Shown in pieces: positions 9,341 to 59,325 of a stretch of DNA of 64,000 nt; position 1 is the first letter of the stretch; each line of letters starts with the position of its first letter. The stretch comes from Prorocentrum cordatum. Its lineage: Eukaryota > Sar > Dinophyceae > Prorocentrales > Prorocentraceae. The stretch spans positions 462,001-526,000 of the forward strand of contig CAUYUJ010003614.1 of assembly GCA_963575745.1 (NCBI GenBank), in the 5' to 3' direction. The notes under the pieces are model-generated. The model searched no databases. It was not told where the DNA came from and was given only the letters and a program-made list of their open reading frames with translations. Position numbers and translations under genes: made by a program.

Positions 9341-10240
9341 TCATCGCCGCCATGCACGGCGCAGCTGGAACCTGACTGCGGGAACCGCTGCCTGGGCCCT
9401 CTCGGGGCGGATGATTGCACCACGGTGGATGCTGCGAAGCTGATGGTACAGCAGCGTGGCAGTTCCAGGAAAAATTAATGCGGCTGGGGATGGATCAGAG
9501 AGACCGAGACGAGCAACGGGGGATGAGGGGAGCGGGGGACACGAGAACTCAACAAGGACAGAGGAGAGCAAAGCGAGACAATATGGACAATACCCGACAT
9601 GCTCGAGAGAATCAGATGGGCCGTGGCAGCACATGCACGGCTCTACCTGCTGAAAACGACGGGCAGTCGCCCACGCGCCCATGAGCAAACGCAGGACCTG
9701 AAACGCGGCCGTGGGAGACATCTGTGCCAACGTCGCTCGAATCTGTGGCCAAGGAAGATTCGTGGCTTCGTCGATCGCTATCGGGAGCCAGCTCGACAGA
9801 CGCGACGCAAAAGTAAAGATAAGCGTATCGTGATACATGTGTGTAGTTATATCCTGATATAACAGGTTCTGCACTCGGATTTTACGGACGGGCTCAGGGT
9901 TGCGGAGGAGGGAACGGACATGGGAGAGAGCAGGGGCAGCAGCAGCAGCAAAACGGGAGCGAAGGACTGGGGTGGAGGTGATAAGTGACGTGCCAATCTG
10001 CTGAGGAAAACCTTCCGCTGCCGACTGGAGGAATTCTGCAAATGACGGCTGCAACCAAAAGCGGGGCGACATCCTATTGAGCGCAATCTCTGGAAGGGAC
10101 AGGGGCCGATCAGCGGCAGCACTAAGCTGGGGGACGAGTGAACTCCAAACAGAAGAGTTGCCGCTCTCATAAGGGTTGCCGCATTCTGGGCTACTAAGCT
10201 GGGGACCTTTGGCCCTCCCAAGTGCAGAAGCTGAAACCAA
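9341..10240 (-). pseudogene. LINE ORF2 C-terminal part with CCHC knuckle
   Basis: This open segment continues the reverse transcriptase ORF in a different frame. It holds the post-RT region and, near 9,590-9,640, the pattern CMCCHGPSDSLEHVGYC, a Cys-Cys-His-Cys knuckle of the kind found at the end of many LINE ORF2 proteins. Motifs such as LLMGAWATARRF precede it. The true join with the upstream frame lies around 10,150-10,240, where both frames carry plausible sequence. The stop is TGA at 9,341-9,343. A defective copy is certain because the upstream part is in another frame. Confidence 0.8.
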
Positions 10241-10865
10241 CCTTCTCGGGGCAGCGCGCAGAGCGGAGTATGATATCTAAAGAGCGCCACCTCCTCACGG
10301 CAAATGGCACTCGGGAGGGGGAGGAATTGAGAGACGTAAGAGGGAACAGAGGTAACACGCACAGGGTAGAGATACAAGATGACACGGAGCGCGGCGCCTG
10401 TCAGAGCTAACTCAGGAGTGCGAGACCTCCATTTCGCAATCGGCGCGCGCCAGCTGTGATCGACAGCCGCAGGACCAAGCCACATTCCCAAGTATTTCAG
10501 AACACCTTTGATGGGAATATGGGCACAATCTGAAACAAGTTGTGCAATCGCCGCTTGATATTCTGCTCTGAGAGCCGGCGTGCAGGGTCCACTCAGGGGG
10601 GCGATGGCGCACTTTTTCAACTTCCGCATCGGCGCAGCGACTCGTTTAGCCGTAGAGAAGATGCGGCGCATGACACGTAGATGCTCCGGCCGACGAAGGG
10701 CAGCGCCGACATCATCTGCACAAGCGCGGACCACTCCACGATCTTTCAGGCAGATGGATTTGTCGAAGTTGGACATGAACGGGTCTGCTGACAGCGCGAA
10801 CAGGCAGCCCGAGCTCGGGCAGCCTTGTATGATGCCACTGCAGATCCAAAAGAGAAGTGTGAGAT
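10241..10865 (-). pseudogene. LINE reverse transcriptase, fingers-palm part 2
   Basis: This frame carries reverse transcriptase motif B (QGCPSSGCLFALSADPF, about 10,780-10,830), the catalytic ADD in RACADDVGAAL (about 10,710-10,735) and the KYLGMWLGP motif (about 10,475-10,510). The second and third palm aspartates are therefore retained. It connects to the upstream segment only by a frame change between about 10,870 and 11,000. Downstream it continues to about 10,200 before the next frame change. It would act in target-primed reverse transcription of the LINE RNA. Confidence 0.88.
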
Positions 10866-12463
10866 CAGCGCCGACCGCGCCAAAGCAGCAGACACCAGAA
10901 GAAAAATTCTGTGAACTTCACCAGCGGCATCGGCAGCAGCATGGCATTGAGAACTTTCAGAACCCAGCTGTGAGCAAGACTGGGGAAGGCCTGACCAACA
11001 TCGTATCCCACTAAGAGAGGCATGGCTACGGAGACGTCTTCTTGCATAGAATATATTCTTCCATCTGTGTCCAATTCGATGATGTTGTTGCCGAAGTTTC
11101 GAGTCGCGACGAAGCCGCGTTGGATATGATTAACAATTCGATGTAATGATTGATTCAGTCGACGGAATGCCACGCCTGTTGCTATCTTGTTGTCCGTGGT
11201 TTTGAGGCCTAGCGGGCGCAGAACAGAAGGGTGTCTGAGAACTCCATGAGGGGTATCTTCGGGCTCTTCTCCTTTGGGTGCGAATACGCCTAGATGCACG
11301 TTGCATCCCAGGGGCATGGGGCCCCCTTCCAACTGCCACCAAAGTACATCATATAAGATTTGAGTCCCAAGATCTGAGGCCTGCCAAGCACCATGCGGGA
11401 GAGCATCTGGACCTGGACCCGAAGGTGTTTGTTTTATGATGTAGCTTCGCACGTCGTGATACATTGGGGGGGGGGGGAGGGGGGGGGGGGGGGGGTCTCT
11501 GAGGTCGGGGGCGTTCTTGAAGCGGGAGAGGTGAACGTCGGCAGCCGTGTCTTCAATCTCTTTTGGAGCGAACGCTGACCCCCAATGTTGAAAAATAGCC
11601 CGGGCTACACCAGAGGGAGAAGTCAATGTTTCCGCGTCTGTCCTCGACCCCACAAGGCGAACAGATTTGTCGAAGGGCGCCCGCAGTCTACTGCGCTCAG
11701 CGAGTAGACGAGGCTGCTTGCGCACTTTAGCCTGCGAGGCCTGCAAGCCAGCGCTTTGCAGCTGGTCCCGATCACGACGCGGTTCCTCTTCAGCGCCAGC
11801 AACTTGAAGTGCATCCAAAGATTCAGCAACAAGGGCGGGCCTGCACAGAGAGATGCGCTGAGTATCTGGATCGATCGATAGATGTTCGCGGGCAAGTTCG
11901 CATCGTGATAATCGCTTCGCAAGCTGAAGATCCTGACGCCAAACTGCACGAGCAACATATCGGAGTTGTAGTATCTTACTCGCAACGTTCGTCGGGTCAC
12001 CTGAGAACATCGCGTCCCTGGCAAACCCGGCGGCTTCTCGCATCACCTCTTTGCACAGGCGCAGGCGGACAGGAGGCGAGCGCAGAGAGAGATCCAGCCT
12101 TCCCCAGAACTCTTCCAAGAAACACTGAACATCAGGATGTTTGAATAGCGACTTTGGGATCGGCTGGGAGTCCTTCGGCTGCGGCGGCCGATGCTGCAAA
12201 GTGACCTGGAGAGGGGCATGGTCTGAAATGCCCTTCTGCTCTAGCGTCTCGGGGGGGTCCCTCACCTTTGCCGAGACGTGCATCTGAGTGGGAAGCCAAC
12301 TATGAGCGGCCAAAAACACCCCGTCTATCTTAGGTGCGCGCTGTAGATATCCATTGTAGTGTGTGAACTCATCCGAGGGGGCCTCCAGGAGCTGCTGCGC
12401 GAGGGAGTGCCGCGGGGACCTTCTATGCTTTCGCCACTGAGCCAGGGATCTATGGGCATCCAT
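10865..12463 (-). pseudogene. LINE ORF2: endonuclease end, linker and RT motifs 0-A
   Basis: This 532-codon frame starts within the endonuclease: GISDHAPL near 12,210-12,235 is the conserved SDH motif of APE-like nucleases. It continues through a linker into the reverse transcriptase. RPLGLKTTDNKIATGVAFRR (about 11,160-11,220) and GFVATRNFGNNIIE match early RT motifs. GYDVGQAFPS near 11,000 holds the first catalytic aspartate (motif A). It ends at a stop at 10,865 caused by a frame change, because motifs B and C follow in the next frame. A run of about 30 G (11,467-11,497 on the plus strand) encodes prolines. Confidence 0.88.
11467..11497 (+). repeat. G-run, possible G-quadruplex
   Basis: Two long guanine runs separated by one A within the LINE. 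They are on the strand opposite to its coding strand. Confidence 0.85.
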
Positions 12464-13060
12464 GGTATCTGGGGCAGTGATGACCTAGGTGCTTCAGCCG
12501 CTAGATTGAAATCGCCTGCCAGGACGACGTAATATCTATCAGGACGAGGACGTGCGATGTCTATGTGCTGCTGGATAACGAGCTTGGCATATGCGATCTG
12601 TCGTGCGTTAAGGCCAAAGTTATGTATATTGAAGTGCATGATGTACGTGTGCTCTGTGTTGTTCTGGCAGGTGCCTAAGTCGAACTCCGTAAGCAGTACT
12701 CTCCCAGGAACGATAATCTCAGACTCAGCTCTAGCACCTGAACCAGCCCACGACGAAACCTTCGGGAAGAAGGTGACTACGCCCCCCCTCCTCCTCGTGT
12801 CCTCGAAGAAAGCGGCCCGAAACTCAAACTGGCTGTTGGACATGTGGAGACAATCCAAAACGTCATCTTCGCTGCCGCGCGACTCTTGAGTCGCAATGAT
12901 ATTGAAACCTTTTAGGAGCTGGCGTAGGTACTGGAGCTTACTGGTCTTCGTAGCTGGGCCATGATGAAATAGCGCGCGAGCATTCCAAGTGGCGAATGCC
13001 AAGCTGGGTGGAATCGAAGCCGTCGAACGAGACGGCAGCCTCACCAACTTGAAAGTTCTG
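12464..13060 (-). pseudogene. LINE ORF2: APE-type endonuclease, N-terminal part
   Basis: The frame open from 13,881 to 12,325 holds LAFATWNARAL (about 12,975-13,010, catalytic Asn), ATQESRG (about 12,880-12,900, catalytic Glu) and VLAGDFNL (about 12,500-12,525, the GDFN Asp/Asn pair). These are the hallmark residues of the exonuclease-endonuclease-phosphatase fold that nicks target DNA in LINE insertion. The SDH motif follows in the next frame, so a frame change lies between about 12,450 and 12,500. No clear ATG is visible for ORF2 upstream of ATWN. Confidence 0.88.
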
Positions 13061-14183
13061 TTAAAGGCCCCACTCTTCAGCAGCGTCGGGGGCAGTGAAG
13101 ACCTGGCCCAGCGCTGCGGCCACCTGGGCCTTGTCCAAGCCGAGGGCGTCGAGCGCCTTCTGGTCGTACTCAATGATGGGCATGTCATTCTGGCGCGGGG
13201 TGACCTTGACGAAAGCACGCCACTGAGATGATACCCTTCCCTTGTTGCGATCAGCGAAGAAGGTGCGGTCGGGGTAGAGGTCAGCGAGCTTCTATTTAAT
13301 CTTTTTGAGATCGAGTTCGCGGCAAATCTGAGCAAAGTTTTTGTCTGCTGATACGAACATGTCCACGTTCTGGCGCTGGGCGGAGAAGGCGGTGAACCTG
13401 CGGAAGCTGCCATCTGGGCGCTTGATGTTGCCGAGGGCCTGCGAGACCACGCGCGCAGCCCAACCAGGGGCTCCTTTAATTTTGACTGTGAAACGGCGAT
13501 CCGCTGGGTCTCCTCCCACTGACCAAGAGCCCTCTTCGAAGTTGGATGCCGAAAGCCACTCTGCCAGTCCTTGACATACCGCTTCTTTGGCCACCAGTGA
13601 AGCAGTGCGGACGACGAGGGTGGTGGGGTCGGTCTTCCTGTGGAACGCGGCGCTCGGGGGTACCGATGGGGGCGTGTCAGTACGGACAGCATTGAGTAAT
13701 CCTTTTTAAGCTCATTAATATCAGCCTGCATGGTGTCCAGCTTGTCATCGTGGGCATCCAAACGGCGCTCTGTGGCACCGATGCGGGTCTCGACAGTCTT
13801 CTCCACGCTCTCGCAGTGCTGCGTGAAGGTCTTGGTAAGCTGGGACAAGCCGGTCTGCATCTGAGCGATCTGGGCGAGCACATTGGATTTGGTGACGTCA
13901 ACATATGCTTCGAGGGCGGCAACTCAGAGGGGTCGTCGGGAGACGGTCCAAATAATTCGGCATCATCGGGGCCTTGCAGAGGTACCTCACCGACTGGGCC
14001 ACCAGCAGCAGGAGCAGCAGCCAGCGGTGCAGATGAAGCAGACCCTTTACCTTCCTTACCACACTTGGTGCCTTCCGTTCTGGGGGCTTGCGCAGGGCGT
14101 TCAGCAGCAGGTGCGGGGCGACGGGAAGCGCTAGACCGATCAGCAGCGGCTCCAGAAGGACGAGCAGGCGGCGCCTCAGGCAT
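13061..14183 (-). pseudogene. LINE ORF1 remnant, coiled-coil protein
   Basis: A likely start is the ATG at 14,181-14,183 (MPEAPPARPSG), 157 bases downstream of the spliced leader. The N-terminal 90 residues are Ala/Pro/Ser-rich. A heptad-like coiled coil (AQIAQMQTGLSQLTKTF onwards) lies at about 13,720-13,880. A compact domain with RFTVKIKG and ADKNFAQICRELDLKK follows at 13,300-13,600. The domain goes on past an in-frame TAG near 13,290 to AAEEWGL and a TAA at 13,061-13,063. Frame changes are needed near 13,925 and 13,690. This would be the RNA-binding ORF1 protein, but no named domain was assigned. Confidence 0.7.
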
Positions 14184-14339
14184 GGTTGCGGCAGCGTGTC
14201 TGGAACTAGCGTCGTGTCTGCGGGGGCAAAGGGGGCTGGCCAGCCGCAGAGGACATGTAGAAGAGAGAAGTCCGCCTGCGCACGACACGCAGGAAAGCTC
14301 AAAGCGCAGAGCTGCCCGCTCGCATGGGACCTGTTCCCA

Positions 14340-14361
14340 CTTGAGCCAAAATGGCAACGGA
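14340..14361 (-). other. relict dinoflagellate spliced leader
   Basis: On the minus strand the 22 bases read TCCGTTG followed by CCATTTTGGCTCAAG. The known dinoflagellate spliced leader is DCCGTAG followed by the same 15 bases, so only position 6 differs (T for A). It lies exactly at the 5' end of the LINE. Spliced leaders are added to mRNAs in trans, so its presence in genomic DNA marks a reverse-transcribed, trans-spliced RNA. Confidence 0.93.
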
Positions 14362-14432
14362 TCTCCTCCTCCTCCTCCTCCTCCTCCTCCCGCTCCCCCT
14401 CCCTCCCTTCCTCCTCCTCCTCCTCTCCTCCA
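14362..14432. repeat. (TCC)n tract at the 5' border of the LINE
   Basis: TCC units with CGCTCCCCCTCC interruptions. On the LINE strand this is (GGA)n directly upstream of the spliced leader. Confidence 0.95.
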
Positions 14433-14559
14433 TTCCTTTTCTATCTAAGCAGCTTCTCCCTGTCGCACCCGGAGGCCAGTTGTTAGGGCGGTCTGGGCGT
14501 TTCGCCCGAGACTTTCTCACCATTTCTGACCCTGACGTGCGAACTTGACCACAGTTTCA

Positions 14560-14815
14560 ACGATGGAGGGCGGGTCGTTTTCAAGATGTGGTTCTCGCCT
14601 TAGCGCCGCGCAAAGTCGTTCTAAACATTGCAACGGTGTCGCGGATTCAGGGCGGGTAAGTTTCAAAATGTGGCTCTCGCCTGGGCGCCGAGCACATCCT
14701 TTTAAAAGGTTGCAAGAGTTTCACAGATTGAGGCCGGGGGTTTTCAAAATGTGGCTCTCGCCTTAGCGCCGCGCACATTCGTTGTGTAAGCTTGCACGGG
14801 TTTCACGGATTCCCA
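14560..14815 (+). repeat. about 81-bp tandem repeat, three copies
   Basis: TTTCAARATGTGGYTCTCGCC starts units at about 14,579, 14,662 and 14,742. Each is followed by AGCGCCGCGCA-like and TTTCACGGATT-like blocks. Confidence 0.85.
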
Positions 14816-15136
14816 TGATCAGCGTACAAGAAGTGGCGTTCTGGAAGGATTCAGGATTATGAGGGTGCAACAATTACGTGCGTTGATTCGCGGCGTTGAA
14901 GTCCTAGGAATGGCGTTCTGGCAAAAATCAAGATCGTCAAGACGCAGTCAGGTTAATCCGTGGCGCTGGAACCCCGAGAAAGACGTTATGGCATCCATCA
15001 AGGTCATCAAACGGTTGTCTTCCAACGAGGCAGTTCCCTCAGTGGAGATCAACCTTTGTATGGGGCCTATGAAAAAATGAGCTTGGAGGGAGGGTTTATT
15101 CCAACATCGTTGATGACTCTTGGGTCTACACTGATT
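14816..15136. other. no recognised feature
   Basis: TGGCGTTCTGG occurs twice (about 14,834 and 14,909). Nothing coding is recognised. Confidence 0.4.
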
Positions 15137-15232
15137 CTCCTCCTCCCCACCTCTCCCACTCCCCCTCCTCCTTTGCCTCCTCCCCCTCCACCCCCTCCTC
15201 CTCCCCCTCCCCCTCCTCCTCCTCTTTCCCCT
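15137..15232. repeat. TCC/CCCCT polypyrimidine tract
   Basis: Imperfect CTCC and CCCCTCC units. Confidence 0.9.
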
Positions 15233-15261
15233 CGCGTCTTGAAAAGATGCGGACGGGAGGG

Positions 15262-15370
15262 TTTCGGCAGTGTTCGGCCTCGGGGGCCCTCACCAGGCCC
15301 AGGGGCCGTCCAAGAACGGCTCAGGGTAGAAGTCGGTCCTGGGGAAAGGATCGGGGCTTCAGGGGACCGC
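15262..15370 (-). repeat. dispersed repeat family 1, copy 5
   Basis: The reverse strand shows TTTCCCCAGGACC, CCTGAGCCG, GGACGGCCCCTGGGCC and GAGGGCCCCCGAGGCCGAA in family order. Confidence 0.65.
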
Positions 15371-16113
15371 GTACTCAAAAGGAAAGATTACATGACTGTG
15401 TCTTAGTTATTCAATCTCTCACTGTTTCCTCTACTTCGGCCTCGGGGGGCAGTTTTCGGGCCCAGAGGCCATCACAAACAGACCCTGGGCGAGACACTGC
15501 GCCCAGGCAAGGGGGGTCGGGAGGTCTGGGGGGGGGGCGCGAATCGAAATAATCATTGATCGTCGGATGTCTGGGGGGTGCTCGAGGGAGTGCTCGTCCC
15601 AGATCTCCGCGCGTCGCGAACAATATGACGAACGACTGTTGGCCATTCTCGGCTTCGGAGGGCCCTCGCTGGGCTCGGGAGCATTCAAAGACGCAGATGT
15701 CTCCTGGCACAACTCAGGAAATTGCAGTCGTGGGTGGTAATCTAACCCAGTCTCAGCTATCTCTGGGTGGAATCTGTTTGCAGTGTCCTGGTCCCTGGGG
15801 CCCTGCAAGACGACTCGGGATGAAACACCGGTCCCCGCGAAAAGGTGTCGAGACCTCTCCCCCCCCGGACGAAGCGGGGAGGGTCCCGCCTCATCGAAGC
15901 CGAGACCGAGGAGAGCTGGGCCCACTCCACTTCTCGGGCACGCGTCCTCTTCCCAAGAGGTCCGATGTTCCGATGTCTTGCTTTTTCCGATGCGGGGTCC
16001 ACGTAAGTCCAGAGCCCTCCCACCCGAGAAACAGGGGGTACCCCCCCCAAGGAGGGTGGGGGCCATGAGGCGCCCCCCTCTCACTTCTCCTTTCGCTAGA
16101 ATCCCGAGGGCCA
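15371..16113. other. no recognised gene
   Basis: GC-rich DNA with scattered fragments reminiscent of family 1 (GGGCCCAGAGGCC near 15,458). No intact element or coding signature. Confidence 0.4.
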
Positions 16114-24518: not shown

Positions 24519-24765
24519 AAACCATATTCAAAACATTACCCTGTGACGTACCCAACCCATTTGTATCATGGGAAACGAGGAGTGGGCCGAAACTTGCATG
24601 GACAATCAAATTGCAGGATCAGTTGTTTGATATGTAAGCTACTTGGGACACGCGCCTCTGGCATGATGCGCAGGAGAACCATACAAGAACGAGGGGCGAC
24701 AACTACAGGCTCGAAGAGGATATGGGGAGTCGGGAACGAAGAGCAGGAGAAAGACGTGCGGGAAA
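24519..24765. other. no recognised feature
   Basis: Spacer before satellite A. Confidence 0.4.
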
Positions 24766-26995
24766 CCCACTGTGCTGTGCCCCTCAGCAGCCCTCGAAAG
24801 TGGCGACAGTTTCACAGATCGCAGCCCCCCAGGGACGGCGAGGTCTGATTTGAGTCTGCGGTGAGTACCCACTGTGCTGTGCCCCTCAGCAGGCCTCGAA
24901 AGTGGCGACAGTTTCACAGATCGCAGCCCCCCAGGGATGGCAAGGTCTAATATGAGTCTGCGGTGAGTATCCACTGTGCTGTGCCCCATCAGCAGCCCTC
25001 GAAAGTGGCGACAGTTTCGCAGATCGCAGCCCCCCAAGGATGGCAAGGTCTAATCTGAGTCTGCGGTGAGTAATTACCCACTGTGTTGTGCCCCTCAGCA
25101 GCCCTCGAAAGTGGCGACAATTTCACAGATCGCAGCCCCCCAGGGATGGCGAGGTCCCATTTGAGTCTGCGGTGAATGCCCGCTGTGCTGTGCCCCTCAG
25201 CAGCCCTCGAAAGTGGCGACAATTTCACAGATCGCAGCCCCCCAGGGATGGCGAGGTCCCATTTGAGTCTGCGGTGGGTACCCACTGTGCTGGGCCCCCC
25301 AGCAGGCCTCGAAAGTGGCGACAGCTTCACAGATCGCAGCCCCCGAGGGATGGCGAGGTCCCATTTGAATCTGCGGTGAGTACCCACTGCGCTGGGCCCC
25401 CCAGCAGCCCTCGAAAGTGGCGACAGCTTCACAGATCGCAGCCCCCGAGGGAAGGCGATGTCTAATCTGAGTCTGCGGTGGGTACCCACTGTGCTGGGCC
25501 CCCCAGCAGCCCTCTAAAGTGGCGACAGTTTCACAGATCGCAGCCCCCCAGGGATGGCGAGGTCCCATCTGAATCTGCGGTGGGTACCCACTGCGCTGGG
25601 CCCCCCAGCAGCCCTCGAAAGTGGCGACAGCTTCACAGATCGCAGCCCCCGAGGGATGGCGAGGTCCCATTTGAATCTGCGGTGAGTACCCACTGTGCTG
25701 GGCCCCCCAGCAGGCCTCGGAAATGGCGACAGTTTCACATATCGCAGCCCCCCAGGGATGGCGAGGTCCTCTTTGAATCTGCGGTGAGTACCTACTGTGC
25801 TGGGCCCCCCAGCAGGCCTCGAAAGTGGCGGCAGTGTTACAGATCGCAGCCCCCCGGGGATGGCGAGGTCCCATTCGAATCTGCGGTGAGTGCCCACTGT
25901 GCTGGGCCCCCCAGCAGGCATCGAAAGTGGCGACAGTTTCACAGATCGCAGCCCCCCAGGGATGGCGAGGTCCCATTTGAGTCTGCGGTGAGTACCCACT
26001 GTGCTGGGCCCCTCAGCAGCCCTCGAAAATGGCGACGGTTTCACAGATCGCAGCCCCCCAGGGATGGCGAGGTCGAATCTGAACCTGCGGTGGGTACCCA
26101 CTGCGCTGGGCCCCCCAGCAGGCCTCGAAAGTGGCGACAGTTTCACAGATCGCAGCCCCCCAGGGATGGCGAGGTCTAATTTGAGTCTGCGGTGAGTGCT
26201 CATTGTGCTGGGGCCCTCAGCAGCCCTCGAAAGTGGCGACAGTTTCACAGATCGCAGCCCCCGGGGGATGGCGAGGTCACATTTGAATCTGCGGTGAGTA
26301 CCCACTGTGCTGTGCCCCACAGCAGCCCTCGAAAGTGGCGACAGTTTCACAGATCGCAGCCCCCCAGGGATGGCGAGGTCCCATTTGGAATCTGCGGTGA
26401 GTACCCACTGCGCTGGGCCCCCCAGCAGCCTTCGAAGGTGGCGACAGTTTCACAGATCGCAGCCCCCCAGGGATGGCGAGGTCCTCTTTGAGTCAGCGGT
26501 GGGTACCCACTGTGCTGGGCCCCCCAGCAGCCCTCGAAAGTGGCGACAATTTCACAAATCGCAGCCCCCCAGGGATGGCGAGGTCCCATTTGAGTCTGCG
26601 GTGAGTACCCACTGTGCTGGGCCCCTCAGCAGCCCTCGAAAGTGGCGACAGTTTCACCGATCGCAGCCCCCCAGGGATGGCGAGGTCTAATCTGAACCTG
26701 CGGTGGGTGCCCACTGCGCTGGGCCCCCCAACAGGCCTCGAAAGTGGCGACAGCTTCACAGATCGCAGCCCCCCAGGGATGGCGAGGTCCCATTTGAGTC
26801 TGCGGTGGGTACCCACTGTGCTGGGCCCCCCAGCAGGCCTCGAAAAGTGGCGACAGTTTCACAGATCGCAGCCCCCCAGGGATGGCGAGGTCCTATTTGA
26901 ATATGCGGTGACTGCCCACTGTGCTGGGCCCCCCAACAGGCCTCGAAAGTGGCGACAGTTTCACAGATCGCAGCCCCCCAGGGATGGCGACGAGC
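24766..26995 (+). repeat. 102-bp satellite A, about 22 copies
   Basis: The unit starts CCCACTGTGCTGGGCCCC and contains CGAAAGTGGCGACAGTTTC and CAGATCGCAGCCCCCCAGGG. Most unit starts are exactly 102 bp apart (for example 24,766, 24,868, 25,077, 25,179, 25,281). Copies differ by scattered substitutions. Since 102 is 34 codons, repetitive frames stay open on both strands. These are not evidence of a protein. Confidence 0.97.
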
Positions 26996-37827: not shown

Positions 37828-38712
37828 CACCCCTCACGCAGATCCGCGGGGTCAGGGTCCAAAAACACAGGGGATTTGCCACATTTCTGAAATTCGGTGC
37901 CACCCCTCACGCAGATCCGCGGGGTCAGGGTCCAAAAACACATGGGATTTGCCACATTTCTAAAATTCGGTGCCACCCCTCACGCAGATCCGCGGGGTCA
38001 GGGTCCAAAAACACATGGGATTTGCCACATTTCTGAAATTCGGTGCCACCCCTCACGCAGATCCGCGGGGTCAGGGTCCAAAAACACATGGGATTTGCCA
38101 CATTTCTGAAATTCGGTGCCACCCCTCACGCAGATCCGCGGGGTCAGGGTCCAAAAACACATGGGATTTGCCACATTTCTGAAATTCGGTGCCACCCCTC
38201 ACGCAGATCCGCGGGGTCAGGGTCCAAAAACACATGGGATTTGCCACATTTCTGAAATTCGGTGCCACCCCTCACGCAGATCCGCGGGGTCAGGGTCCAA
38301 AAACACATGGGATTTGCCACATTTCTGAAATTCGGTGCCACCCCTCACGCAGATCCGCGGGGTCAGGGTCCAAAAACACATGGGATTTGCCACATTTCTG
38401 AAATTCGGTGCCACCCCTCACGCAGATCCGCGGGGTCAGGGTCCAAAAACACATGGGATTTGCCACATTTCTGAAATTCGGTGCCACCCCTCACGCAGAT
38501 CCGCGGGGTCAGGGTCCAAAAACACAGGGGATTTGCCACATTTCTGAAATTCGGTGCCACCCCTCACGCAGATCCGCGGGGTCAGGGTCCAAAAACACAC
38601 ATTTGCCACATTTCCACATTTCTGAAATTCGGTGCCACCCCTCACGCAGATCCGCGGGGTCAGGGTCCAAAAACACAGGGGATTTGCCACATTTCTGAAA
38701 TTCGGTGCCACC
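37828..38712 (+). repeat. 73-bp satellite B, 12 copies
   Basis: The unit CACCCCTCACGCAGATCCGC then GGGGTCAGGGTCC, CATGGGATTTGCC and TTTCTGAAATTCGGTG repeats every 73 bp with very few differences. One unit near 38,590-38,630 has an internal indel. Confidence 0.97.
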
Positions 38713-38724
38713 CTTCACGCACAT

Positions 38725-38840
38725 CCATCGCAAGGCGTGGTAACCCAAACTGCGAGAACTCCCTCGGCCCTTTAATCGCAAGGTGTGGTAACCAAGCCCG
38801 TAAACCATACACGTCTTACCAATCGCCAGGTGTGGTAACC
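38725..38840 (+). repeat. ATCGCAAGGTGTGGTAACC repeat, three copies
   Basis: Copies at about 38,728, 38,774 and 38,820, 46 bp apart. Confidence 0.85.
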
Positions 38841-39728: not shown

Positions 39729-39750
39729 ACCACATCATCATCGTCATCAC

Positions 39751-40915
39751 CCAATTCGGCACACCCCTCACACGTTTCGTGGCCCCATAGGAGCTCCGCC
39801 GAAGGCCCCAGTGCTGCCGCCCGCATGCGTCACCCACACCCAATTCGGCACACCCCTCACACGCTTCGTGGCCCCATAGGAGCTCCGCCGAAGGCCGAGC
39901 GTCACCCACACCAATTCGGCACACCCCTCACACGTTTCGTGGCCCCATAGGAGCTCCGCCGAAGGCCCCAGTGCTGCCGCCCGCATGCGTCACCACCCAA
40001 TTCGGCACACCCCTCACACGTTTCGTGGCCCCTTAGGCAAGCGGCGTTTCGTGGCCCCATAGTCCCAGCTGCCGCCCGCATGCGTCACCCACACCCAATT
40101 CGGCACACCCCTCACACGTTTCGTGGCCCCATAGGGAGCTCCACCGAAGGCCCCAGTGCTGCCGCCCGCATGCGTCACCCACACCCAATTCGGCACACCC
40201 CTCACACGTTTCGTGGCCCCATAGGGAGCTCCGCCGAAGGCCCCAGTGCTGCCGCCCGCATGCGTCACCCACACCCAATTCGGCACACCCCTCACACGTT
40301 TCGTGGCCCCATAGGAGCTCCACCGAAGGCCCCAGTGCTGCGCCCGCATGCGTCACCCACACCCATTTCGGCACACCCCTCACACGTTTCGTGGCCCCAT
40401 AGGGAGCTCCGCCGAAGGCCCCAGTGCTGCCGCCCGCATGCGTCACCCACACCCAATTCGGCACACCCCTCACACGCTTCGTGGCCCCATAGGAGCTCCG
40501 CCGAAGGCCCCAGTGCTGCCGCCCGCATGCGTCACCCACACCCAATTCGGCACACCCCTCACACGTTTCGTGGCCCCATAGGAGCTCCGCCGAAGGCCCC
40601 AGTGCTGCCGCCCGCATGCGTCACGCGCACCCAATTCGGCACACCCCTCACACGCTTCGTGGCCCCATAGGGAGCTGCACCGAAGGCCCCAGTGGCGGCG
40701 CCCACATGCGTCCCCGCCACACATCCCAGTACACCCCTCACGCGCTTCGTGGCCCCATAAGGAGCTCCGCCGAAGGCCCCAGTAGCGGCGCTTACATGCG
40801 TCTCCGCCACCCATCCCGGCACCCCCCCCGCAGCAGCATCATGTTTCGGGGACCCAAAGGGAGCTCCACTGGAAGCCCCAGCGGCGGCCCTCACATGCGC
40901 TTCCGCCACCCATGT
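39751..40915 (-). repeat. about 90-bp satellite C, 13 copies
   Basis: Unit: CCAATTCGGCACACCCCTCA, CGTTTCGTGGCCCCATAGG, AGCTCCGCCGAAGGCCCC, CCGCCCGCATGCGTCACC. Spacing is mostly 88-90 bp, with a short 71-bp unit and a longer one near 40,020-40,080. The last three copies diverge. It is called minus because its tail lies at the low-coordinate side. Confidence 0.95.
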
Positions 40916-41170
40916 CGGCACGCTCCAGGCGAATTGTCATTTATTGGGGGGACATTTTCTACTTCCGACGACCTTCCGCCGCCCTCCCGCTGCCTTTTGC
41001 CGAGGAAGAGATGACAACTCCTTCGACCCTTGAAGGCAAGGCGCTTTCTGAAACGCCCCACGTGGCGCTTGCAGCCTGTCGAATATCTCTCTGGAAAACC
41101 GGGCCCCGTCGCGACAAGGACGCGCTGGCAGTCCCAACAAAGGCCCAAAACCGCCAGGAAGCCTACGGCC
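40916..41170. other. no recognised feature
   Basis: Nothing firm. GGAAAACCGGGCCCCGTCGC may be a decayed family 3 fragment. Confidence 0.35.
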
Positions 41171-52505: not shown

Positions 52506-52553
52506 GCTCGCATCTGCCTGCCAACCTGCCTCCCACCTCGCCGTACTACATGA

Positions 52554-53420
52554 TCTCGCCATGCCTGGAGGGGTGTGAAGTGCAAAGCTGTCGCTACTTG
52601 CTACTTTCGAGGGCTGCTGGGGGGTCCAGCGAAGTGACATCTTACAGCATATTCATATTAGACCTCGCCATCCCGGGGTGGGTGCGAACTGCGAAGCTGT
52701 CGCCACGTTCGAGTGCTGCTGGGGGGTCCAGCGGAGTAACATCTTAGCGCGGATTCAGATAAGACCTCGCCATGCCTGGGGGATGTGAATTGCGGAGCTG
52801 TCGCCAGTTTCGAGGGTTGCTGGGGGGTCCACTGGAGTGACGTCTCACCGCAGATTCAGAATAGACCTCGCCATCCCTGGGGGAAGAGGGGGTGCCAACT
52901 GCGAAAGCGTTGAGACTGTCAAGGATTATTTGGGGGGGGCCAGCGGGGTGACGCCTTACCACAGATACACGGCATCCCTTGGGGAGATGAGAATTGCCGA
53001 ACTGTCGCCACTTTGGAAGGCTGCTGGAGGATCCACAGCGGAGTGACGCTTTACTGCAGATTCAGATTAGACCTTGCAATGCCTGGGGGGCTGAGATCTG
53101 CGAAAGGGTCGCCGCTTTCGAGGGCTTCTGGGGGGTTCCAGCGGAGTGACGTGGTAATGCAGATTCCCATTCGACCTCGCCATGCCTGCGGGGCTGCGAA
53201 CTGCGGAACTGTCGCAACTTTCGAAGGCTGCCAGGAGGGGTCCAGCGGAGTGCGCGTTCACTGCAGAATCAGATTAGACTTCGCCATAGATGGGGGGCTG
53301 CGAACTGCGAAACGGTCACCGCTCTCGAGGGCTGCTGGGGTTCCCAGCGGAGTGACGCCCCGCCACGGATTTAGAGTAGACTTCGCCATCTCTGGAGGGG
53401 CTAAGAACTGCAGAACAATT
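52554..53420 (-). repeat. satellite A, second array, inverted and diverged
   Basis: Eight to nine units of about 100 bp with GACCTCGCCATCCCTGGGG, CTGCGAAACTGTCGCC-like and TTCGAGGGCTGCTGGGGGG blocks, the reverse complement of the 24.8-27.0 kb unit. Divergence between units is much higher than in the first array. Confidence 0.9.
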
Positions 53421-57880: not shown

Positions 57881-57972
57881 AACAAACCTGGCGAAGGACC
57901 CAACCATATGCAGTTGTGAATACCGCAAGTATGAATATCGTTTTCGGTGGTGCTACCACTTGGTAAGGGAAA
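57881..57972. other. spacer, no feature
   Basis: Nothing identified. Confidence 0.4.
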
Positions 57973-59165
57973 CGCATGCGAACACCCCCACTGGGGCCTT
58001 TGGTGAAGCTCCCTATGAGGCTACGAAACGCTGCCCTGGGCTGTGGAACCGCATGCGGACACCCCCCCTGGGGCCTTCGGTGGAGCTCCCTATGGAACCA
58101 CAAAGCGCTGTCCTGGGTAGGGGAACCGCATGCGCCCTCCCCCCGTTGGGGCCTTCGGTGGAGCTCCCTATGGGGCCACGAAGCGCTGTCCTGGGTGGGG
58201 GATCCGCATGCGCCCCCCCCACTGGGACCTTCGGTGGAGCTCCCCATGGGGCCACGAAGCGCCACCCTGGGTGGGGGAACTGGGGCCTTCGGTGGAGCTC
58301 CCCATTGGGCCACGAAGCGCTGCCCTGGGTGAGGGAACCACATCCGCCCATCCCCCACTGGGGCCTTCGGTGGAGCTCCCTTTGTGGCCACGAAGCGCTG
58401 CCCTGGGTGGGGGAAACGCATGCGCCCACCCCCACTGGGGCCTTCGGTGGAGCGCCTCGTAGGGCCACGAAACGCTGCCCTGGGTGGGGGATCCGCATGC
58501 GCCCACACCCACTGCGGCCTTCGGTGGAACTCCTGTGGGGCCACGAAACGCCGCCCTGGGTTAAGGAAGCGCGCGCGCCCACCCCCGCTGGGACCTTTGG
58601 TGGAGCTCCCTATGGGGCCACGAAGCGCTGCCCTGGTTGGGGGAACCGCATGCGCCCACCCCCCGTTGGGGCCTTCGGTGGAGCTCCCTGCGGGGCAACG
58701 AAACGTTGCCCTGGGTGGGGGAACCGCACGCGCCCACCCCCACTGGGACCGTCGGTGGAGCTCCCTGTGGGGCCACGAAACGCTGCACTGGGTAGGGGGA
58801 CCCCATGCGCGCACCCCCACTGGGACCTTCGGTGGAGCTCCATATGGGGCCACGAAACTCTGCCCTGTGTGGAGAAACCGCATGCGCCCACCCCCACTCG
58901 GGCCTTCGGTGAAGCTCCCTGTGGGGCCACGAAACGCTGCCCTGGGTGGGGGAACCGCATGCGCACACCCCCACTGGGGCCTTCGGTGGAGCTTCCTATG
59001 GGGCCACGAACGCGCTGCCCTGTGTGAGGGAACCGCATGCGCCCGCCCCCACTGGGGCCTTCGGTGGAGCTCCCCGCGGGGCCACGAAGCGCTGTCTTGG
59101 GAGAAGGAGACGCATGCGAACGCCCCCACTGGGACCTTCGGTGGAGCTCCCTATGGGGCCACGAA
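57973..59165 (+). repeat. satellite C, second array, inverted orientation
   Basis: About 15 units of 76-86 bp: CACTGGGGCCTTCGGTGGAG, CTCCCTATGGGGCCACGAAG and CGCTGCCCTGGGTGGGGGAACCGCATGCGCCCAC-like ends. The core is the reverse complement of the 39.75-40.9 kb unit, but the part between cores differs. Confidence 0.93.
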
Positions 59166-59325
59166 GCTTTGAAATGATGATGTTGGTGACGATGGCGGCG
59201 GCGATGACGACGACAACGACGACGATGATGACGATGACGACGATGACGACGATGATGGCGATGATGATGATGATGGGAGGAGGGAGGAGGGAGGAGGGGG
59301 GGAGGGCGGGAAGGAGAAGGAGAGG
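59166..59325. repeat. GAT/GAC tract followed by GGAGGGA tract
   Basis: GATGACGACGATGATG to about 59,272, then GGAGGGAGGAGG. It mirrors the TCC and CATCATC link of the other satellite C array. Confidence 0.92.

Follow-up and report, generated by a model that had tools for sequence, protein, structure and literature searches.

A LINE family of Prorocentrum cordatum whose copies mostly begin with the dinoflagellate spliced leader

A decayed LINE of Prorocentrum cordatum begins with an encoded dinoflagellate spliced leader (SL), as do most of the family copies examined. The original prediction is borne out as an observation, and the phenomenon extends further than it supposed. In the family studied here the leader is most likely inherited from an ancestral capture by trans-splicing, rather than added anew in each cycle of retrotransposition; trans-splicing and RNA 5' ends are deduced here from genomic DNA.

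The LINE and its leader

The element lies in a 64,000-nucleotide stretch of genomic DNA, called the window below, and spans positions 14361-9306 of the minus strand (about 5.06 kb). Its parts and flanks are as follows.

14362..14432 (far limit approximate), minus strand: (GGA)n-rich microsatellite, 5' flank of the element (sequence reading)
14340..14361, minus strand: encoded dinoflagellate SL, T6 variant (21/22), the first bases of the LINE (pattern match and family ends)
14269..14361, minus strand: conserved 5' module of about 93 nt, comprising the SL and 5' UTR, with a predicted fold and the end GGCGGAC (alignments, fold, pair counts)
14184..14339, minus strand: 5' UTR from the SL to the ORF1 ATG, 156 bases (sequence reading)
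13061..14183, minus strand: ORF1, decayed, with two frameshifts and one in-frame stop; ATG at 14183 (ORF reading)
9341..13060, minus strand: ORF2 region with endonuclease, reverse transcriptase (RT) and a C-terminal Cys/His motif (by eye), three frameshifts and the stop at 9341-9343
9306..9340, minus strand: short 3' UTR with a 3' terminus kept in the family, ...CGCCTCGGCCACGCGC (family alignment)
9100..9305, minus strand: (GGA)n-rich microsatellite, 3' flank, same motif and strand as at the 5' flank (sequence reading)

A pattern search permitting up to three mismatches found a single SL match in the window, at 14340-14360 of the minus strand with one mismatch in 21 bases, and none in 100 shuffled windows (0/100). 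Base 14361 is T, which is permitted as SL base 1 and brings the total to 21/22. The minus strand of 14340-14361 reads TCCGTTGCCATTTTGGCTCAAG; the sole difference from the consensus DCCGTAGCCATTTTGGCTCAAG, as given in passages of PMC6050394 and PMC7245778, is at position 6, where A is replaced by T (T6). The upstream (GGA)n run stops where the SL starts. An SL at the LINE 5' end adjoining a GGA microsatellite, as originally predicted, is therefore confirmed, and the ORF1 ATG does lie just downstream, at a distance of 156 bases and not the 157 claimed.

The N-terminal half of ORF1 is coiled-coil-like by eye; no Pfam family scored above cutoff for this frame. ORF2 contains an apurinic-type endonuclease domain (Pfam Exo_endo_phos, 29.3 bits against a cutoff of 24.5, E 8.9e-7), while RVT_1 on the broken window frame stayed below cutoff (E 0.08). 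The ORF2 read-through matches Prorocentrum RVT_1 proteins, the best at E 8e-117 with 29% identity over 97%. Among 7996 candidates scored it had 14 protein matches, 11 of them named Prorocentrum cordatum, and its best relatives are 24-45% identical. An earlier protein search gave no match among 7998 candidates, probably owing to low-complexity proline words crowding the list. One ORF2 piece had no relatives in IMG/VR (0 of 12 stretches confirmed), and no phage relatives were found for one endonuclease-containing piece. Terminal repeats are absent: the long direct repeats in 8000-15500 are microsatellite or lie outside the element. By its apurinic-type endonuclease, its RT and the variable-length target-site duplication (TSD) of a family copy, the element is classified from sequence as a non-LTR retrotransposon (LINE).

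Other repeats of the window include three direct repeats of about 82 bp right beyond the LINE 5' flank (14567-14811) and tandem arrays at 24765-26990, 37828-38726, 39748-40921, 52552-53410 and 57959-59167, with offsets of about 102, 73, 90, 100 and 77 bases, respectively. The array at 52552-53410 is an inverted relative (about 72%) of that at 24765-26990.

Family copies and their ends

The assembly was searched with 962 bases from the SL inwards, which gave 45 matches (40 of 224 candidates scored). Six other copies are 87-91% identical across all 962 bases and start at SL base 1. ORF1 homology was found at 21 places including the window; two of these are on contigs 99.8% identical to each other (L074 and L075), which leaves 20 independent copies. 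With the same 40 of 224 candidates scored, 18 of the 20, window included, start with the SL, although the match is weaker in two of the 18 (20/21 bases in L076, 17 in L078). The remaining two are L064, which begins 18 bases inside the SL, and L074/L075, which has a different 5' end and no SL within 1.1 kb. The leader is thus a regular part of the family, and none of the 20 independent copies (0/20) was seen to extend upstream past this point without a leader, the observation that would have spoken against the original prediction.

In one family copy (C21671), GAGGGATGGAGCAGCCCC stands directly before the SL and again directly after CACGCGC, forming an 18-bp TSD. The window element has its last base at 9306 (CGCCTCGGCCACGCGC) and is followed by (GGA)n on the same strand; four other family copies end in ...(CAC/CAG)GCGC and then pass into GGA-rich DNA. 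When eight family 3' regions were compared with the window 3' end, five matched (L079, L080, L083, L085, L086), L081 lacked a match where one was expected, and L082 and L084 read as N. As the TSD of C21671 touches both the SL and the 3' terminus and the 5' boundary is common to the copies, the predicted copying as far as SL base 1 is upheld, and for the same reasons the window SL is taken as the exact 5' end of the element, the TSD of the window copy being not delimitable within (GGA)n.

Two loci have unusual arrangements. The SL of L066 is preceded, at about 45-70 bases, by an SL-like sequence of the opposite strand that borders the same (GGA)n, an arrangement that suggests a head-to-head pair of elements. 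On contig C13501 two starts of SL plus module (L105, L106) are 162 bases apart on the same strand, with TCC-rich DNA before each.

Microsatellite setting

We collected 57 junctions of module-bearing copies, namely the window, 36 chosen from the family search and 20 from a search with the SL-module pattern (see below); many of these copies are known by the 5' module alone. Within 60 bp upstream, 32 junctions have GGA, 20 have TCC and 5 have neither, so 52 of the 57 lie in (GGA)n or (TCC)n. Of the first 30 SL sites listed genome-wide (contigs C1-C3), 14 are preceded by (TCC)n and 7 by (GGA)n at a distance of up to 60 bp (21 in all), and none (0/30) is followed by either within 60 bp. As background, 20,000 random positions were drawn in the 8-kb loci around 20 of these sites, of which 805 (4.0%) had such a repeat, and another 20,000 in the window, of which 1,295 (6.5%) did. 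A count of the (GGA) pattern gave 2268 forward and 835 reverse sites, of which the forward ones are partly listed repeatedly and the reverse ones look usable, though without an exact denominator. Judging by these flanks, copies with the module are located chiefly in (GGA)n or (TCC)n, as microsatellite-targeting LINEs are in simple repeats.

A conserved 5' module with its own leader variant

The first ~93 nt are kept across aligned copies whose downstream sequence diverges. A pattern of the SL plus the first 5' UTR bases, with position 6 free and up to three mismatches, found 192 copies (control 0), 100 of them listed. In the 48 exact family copies among the matches listed, position 6 is T in 36, A in 8, G in 3 and C in 1, whereas the 100 SL sites listed genome-wide have A in 94 cases, G in 5 and T in 1 (Fisher p 7e-23 for the excess of T6 in the family over the genome-wide listed sites). 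Agreement at position 6 between nearest 5' UTR neighbours was 0.73, a value reached in 15 of 1000 permutations, which indicates modest clustering. The leaders of A6 copies looked cleaner than those of T6 copies, the T6 rows having been partly picked for mutations.

RNAalifold predicted pairing of SL bases 1-4 with the 3' end of the module and of bases 7-9 and 16-19 with the 5' UTR, with a covariation term of only -0.2. The fold was evaluated on a set of 35 sequences, 30 of them distinct; the structure itself had been derived from 22 of the 35. L064, which has lost the SL, and L074-L076 were dropped from the module alignments. In the predicted fold 98.0% of cells are paired, the covariation score is 0.096 against 0.062 +/- 0.005 in shuffles, and double-change cells number 11 against 2.5, none of the three being equalled in 500 shuffles (0/500). 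Only three pairs show double changes, a number reached in 33 of 500 shuffles, and one of the three involves an SL base: C18 with G44 in L097 and, by eye, the same bases in L100. Further pair types did not exceed the shuffled level (14 against 12.9; 145 of 500 reach that), and taken by itself the window module has a fold no better than those of its shuffles (z -0.88, 40/200). A ribozyme was also considered. An Rfam scan of the module gave no ribozyme family at E<=5 and only SOX2OT_exon3 at E 4.1, so an HDV-like ribozyme, being without a match, was set aside; a new ribozyme class is conceivable. By eye, no threading of the module as a double pseudoknot was found.

Tandem leaders

Tandem leaders, which the original prediction proposed to count, occur exactly at 4 of 30 listed SL sites and at 1 of the 57 module junctions. 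The latter, L092, reads (TCC)n-TCCGTAGCCATTTTGGCTCAAG-CCATTTTGGCTCAAG-module, a canonical SL joined to an older SL without its first seven bases; the older leader no longer has its base 6, so whether it was A6 or T6 is not readable. The same tandem of SL and CCATTTTGGCTCAAG is present in L042 and L048, both LINEs by tblastn. The older leader is cut after ...TAG, just past base 7, that is between CCGTAG and CCATTTT, and T6 makes TTG of this TAG. The relict form CCATTTTGGCTCAAG has been described in retrogene transcripts, and TG suggested as a non-canonical acceptor, in passages of PMC12014239; since TG is proposed there as an acceptor, T6 need not block re-splicing. These tandems suggest that some SL-headed copies, L092 with the module of the window family and L042 and L048 among other LINEs, were trans-spliced again and then retrotransposed.

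Leader-headed LINEs across the genome

The assembly searched comprises 4.13 Gb in 21,875 contigs. The SL pattern, with position 6 free and at most one mismatch, matched 12,880 + 12,937 times (25,817), and the reversed-pattern control 0 + 0 times. The first 20 sites listed, all on contig C1, were examined with 7.5 kb of downstream sequence each, and in 13 of the 20 LINE-like coding sequence follows on the strand of the SL. Seven of these were recognised by a same-strand tblastn match to RT proteins, five by Pfam (L034, L039, L043, L046, L052; four only via scores below curated cutoffs) and one by tblastx (L036). In L038 the SL is followed by an open frame of 1869 codons with endonuclease and RT domains above cutoff. 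In L039 the 14-15 bases before the SL are repeated after an A8 tail 6.6 kb downstream; in none of the other 19 sampled loci did the same script, with low-complexity words excluded, detect such a pair. By eye, and without a chance control, at least 12 of the 20 loci (L034, L036-L038, L040, L042, L043, L046-L049, L051) show, 5.0-6.6 kb further down the same strand, another run of the trinucleotide of their 5' flank, and L044 is flanked by (TA)n on both sides. As far as coding content tells, SL-headed LINEs at the sampled sites are of several kinds and not a single-family oddity.

Several further features were seen at such loci. In L038 (6118-6150) and the related L051, a long hairpin forms the end of the element and directly adjoins the microsatellite; 30 and 8 of 200 shuffles, respectively, fold equally well, and L040 and L042 have no such hairpin. 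At L040 (6304-6376) one (TCC)n run contains both the end of the LINE and the start of a second SL (L041), so that elements may stack in one microsatellite. Outside the assembly, a 7.2-kb viral-collection contig of 22% GC (IMGVR_UViG_3300045993_001077; L001, 2746-2913) contains a pair of exact SLs at a spacing of 147 bases, and the second of them precedes a long open frame unlike its AT-rich surroundings; this may reflect host mRNA within a virus, a chimera or mimicry. One Dehalococcoidia-binned contig (JAKUNN010000063.1; L003, 4334-4354) has an SL followed by GTACGC, which resembles a dinoflagellate SL RNA gene and is probably contamination.

Origin of the leader

We consider it probable that the best explanation combines an ancestral SL capture, a heritable T6 module, target-primed reverse transcription from the encoded SL base 1 and occasional re-addition. 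The RNA of an ancestral LINE would have been trans-spliced and reverse-transcribed to its cap-proximal base, so that the SL entered the DNA of the element. In the window family the SL would then have become heritable as part of the ~93-nt module, with A6 changed to T. New copies would arise by target-primed reverse transcription of an RNA that starts at the encoded SL base 1, replacement by the canonical leader being unusual; the exact 5' end of such T6 RNA might come from processing, from a promoter located at the SL or from a T6 leader RNA. In some copies a new SL would have been joined to the older one cut just after base 7, giving the tandem, and the (TCC)n flank could serve as the pyrimidine tract for such re-splicing. 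A reset by exact swap at the terminal CAAG is conceivable. The leader looks inherited because it is mostly T6, a form rare in the genome-wide list, and because it is part of the conserved module. The originally predicted trans-splicing of the LINE RNA itself accordingly stands as a plausible ancestral event, which the tandems of L092, L042 and L048 suggest was repeated in some copies, but it is not supported as the source of a fresh leader in each cycle.

The main rival to inheritance would have the SL added afresh by trans-splicing every cycle, with T6 arising from family-specific miscopying at a modified leader base 6. The tandem leaders speak for it, as do the A6 copies scattered through the family (8 of the 48 exact copies among matches listed) and the occurrence of T, A, G and C alike at base 6. 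So does the behaviour of other shared SL variants, which do not track 5' UTR similarity: the mean distance was 0.352 between copies sharing one and 0.308 over all pairs (a value as low arose in 1606 of 2000 permutations), in a sample partly picked for such variants and with L064 (SL lost), L092 (tandem) and L074-L076 dropped. Nevertheless, if a canonical leader were added every cycle, T6 should not typify one family, whereas among the matches listed it does so in 36 of 48 exact copies against 1 of 100 sites listed genome-wide, and T6 accompanies the module even where the following sequence diverges. We therefore regard fresh addition as unlikely, while T6 itself could have come from a copying error at a modified base 6 or from a T6 leader RNA.

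A minor T6 spliced-leader RNA, spliced to the window family, would account for the family-specific T6 by ordinary trans-splicing. Against it, the four SL+GTANG sites in the assembly, which are candidate SL RNA genes, are all A6, a weak argument in that the real genes could be collapsed or missing, or could use a different donor; we hold this source to be improbable. Relict leaders are known to mark dinoflagellate retrogenes (passages of PMC6050394 and PMC12014239), yet an ordinary processed retrogene in place of a LINE is ruled out, its probability being very small, by the coding of endonuclease and RT and by the SL-headed copies. That the match arose by chance, or that the 5' UTR has nothing to do with the leader, has next to no probability and is ruled out by the family and genome data: the SL does form part of a conserved 5' module, but it matches at 21/22 bases with none in the shuffles, sister copies have the canonical A6 SL at the same junction, and the SL heads other LINEs.

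Beyond inheritance of the leader, we speculate that a LINE lineage captured the host SL as a heritable 5' module and mutated its inner AG to TG, that its DNA would now supply both the exact 5' end and the identity tag of its mRNA, and that it would mostly no longer need or get trans-splicing. We offer this fuller reading tentatively, as something short of an even chance.

Comparison with known systems

DinoSL-tagged retrogenes of dinoflagellates were reportedly described by Slamovits and Keeling in 2008. As presented in passages of PMC6050394 and PMC12014239, such retrogenes resemble the LINEs studied here in having a genomic SL at the 5' end of a reverse-transcribed RNA and in the tandem relict. 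They differ in that here the tagged RNA is that of a LINE, and the SL recurs across copies and, in the window family, appears to be inherited with a variant of its own. The type of retroelement behind dinoflagellate retrogenes is called unknown in the portion of the review PMC6050394 that we cite, which leans to LTR elements, and passages of PMC10235124 argue for LINEs, partly from proximity. With the SL carried by LINEs themselves, LINEs become natural suspects and the question becomes testable. A search of mostly open-access papers, covering their main texts in part, found no report of a LINE that begins with the dinoflagellate SL.

Microsatellite-targeting LINEs include names such as Dong. 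Those treated in the consulted portion of PMC4640811 likewise have copies within simple repeats; their endonucleases are restriction-like, in contrast to the apurinic-type enzyme here, and the present LINEs occur in both TCC and GGA orientations, belong to several kinds and are SL-headed. Dinoflagellate LINEs are also represented by SymbioLINE-Dnmt of Symbiodinium, for which the available text of PMC5890265 contains 'spliced leader' 0 times; in the window ORFs scanned with Pfam, no DNMT family was found.

The trypanosomatid L1Tc/ingi LINEs with Pr77, according to sections of PMC8190864, share with the window LINE a short conserved 5' module (77 nt against ~93 nt here) and a trans-splicing host. 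However, L1Tc has unspliced RNA, its own promoter and an HDV-like ribozyme, while the module of the window LINE begins with the SL and has no ribozyme match in Rfam. The window family suggests how a LINE could manage its 5' ends where a leader RNA supplies the 5' ends of mRNAs. Finally, the dinoRNAV with a 5' dinoSL, discussed as mimicry in part of PMC10235124, is another case of parasite RNA with the host leader; it is an RNA virus, whereas the window element belongs to an integrated LINE family. The window family also suggests a route by which a host tag may become a component of a parasite.
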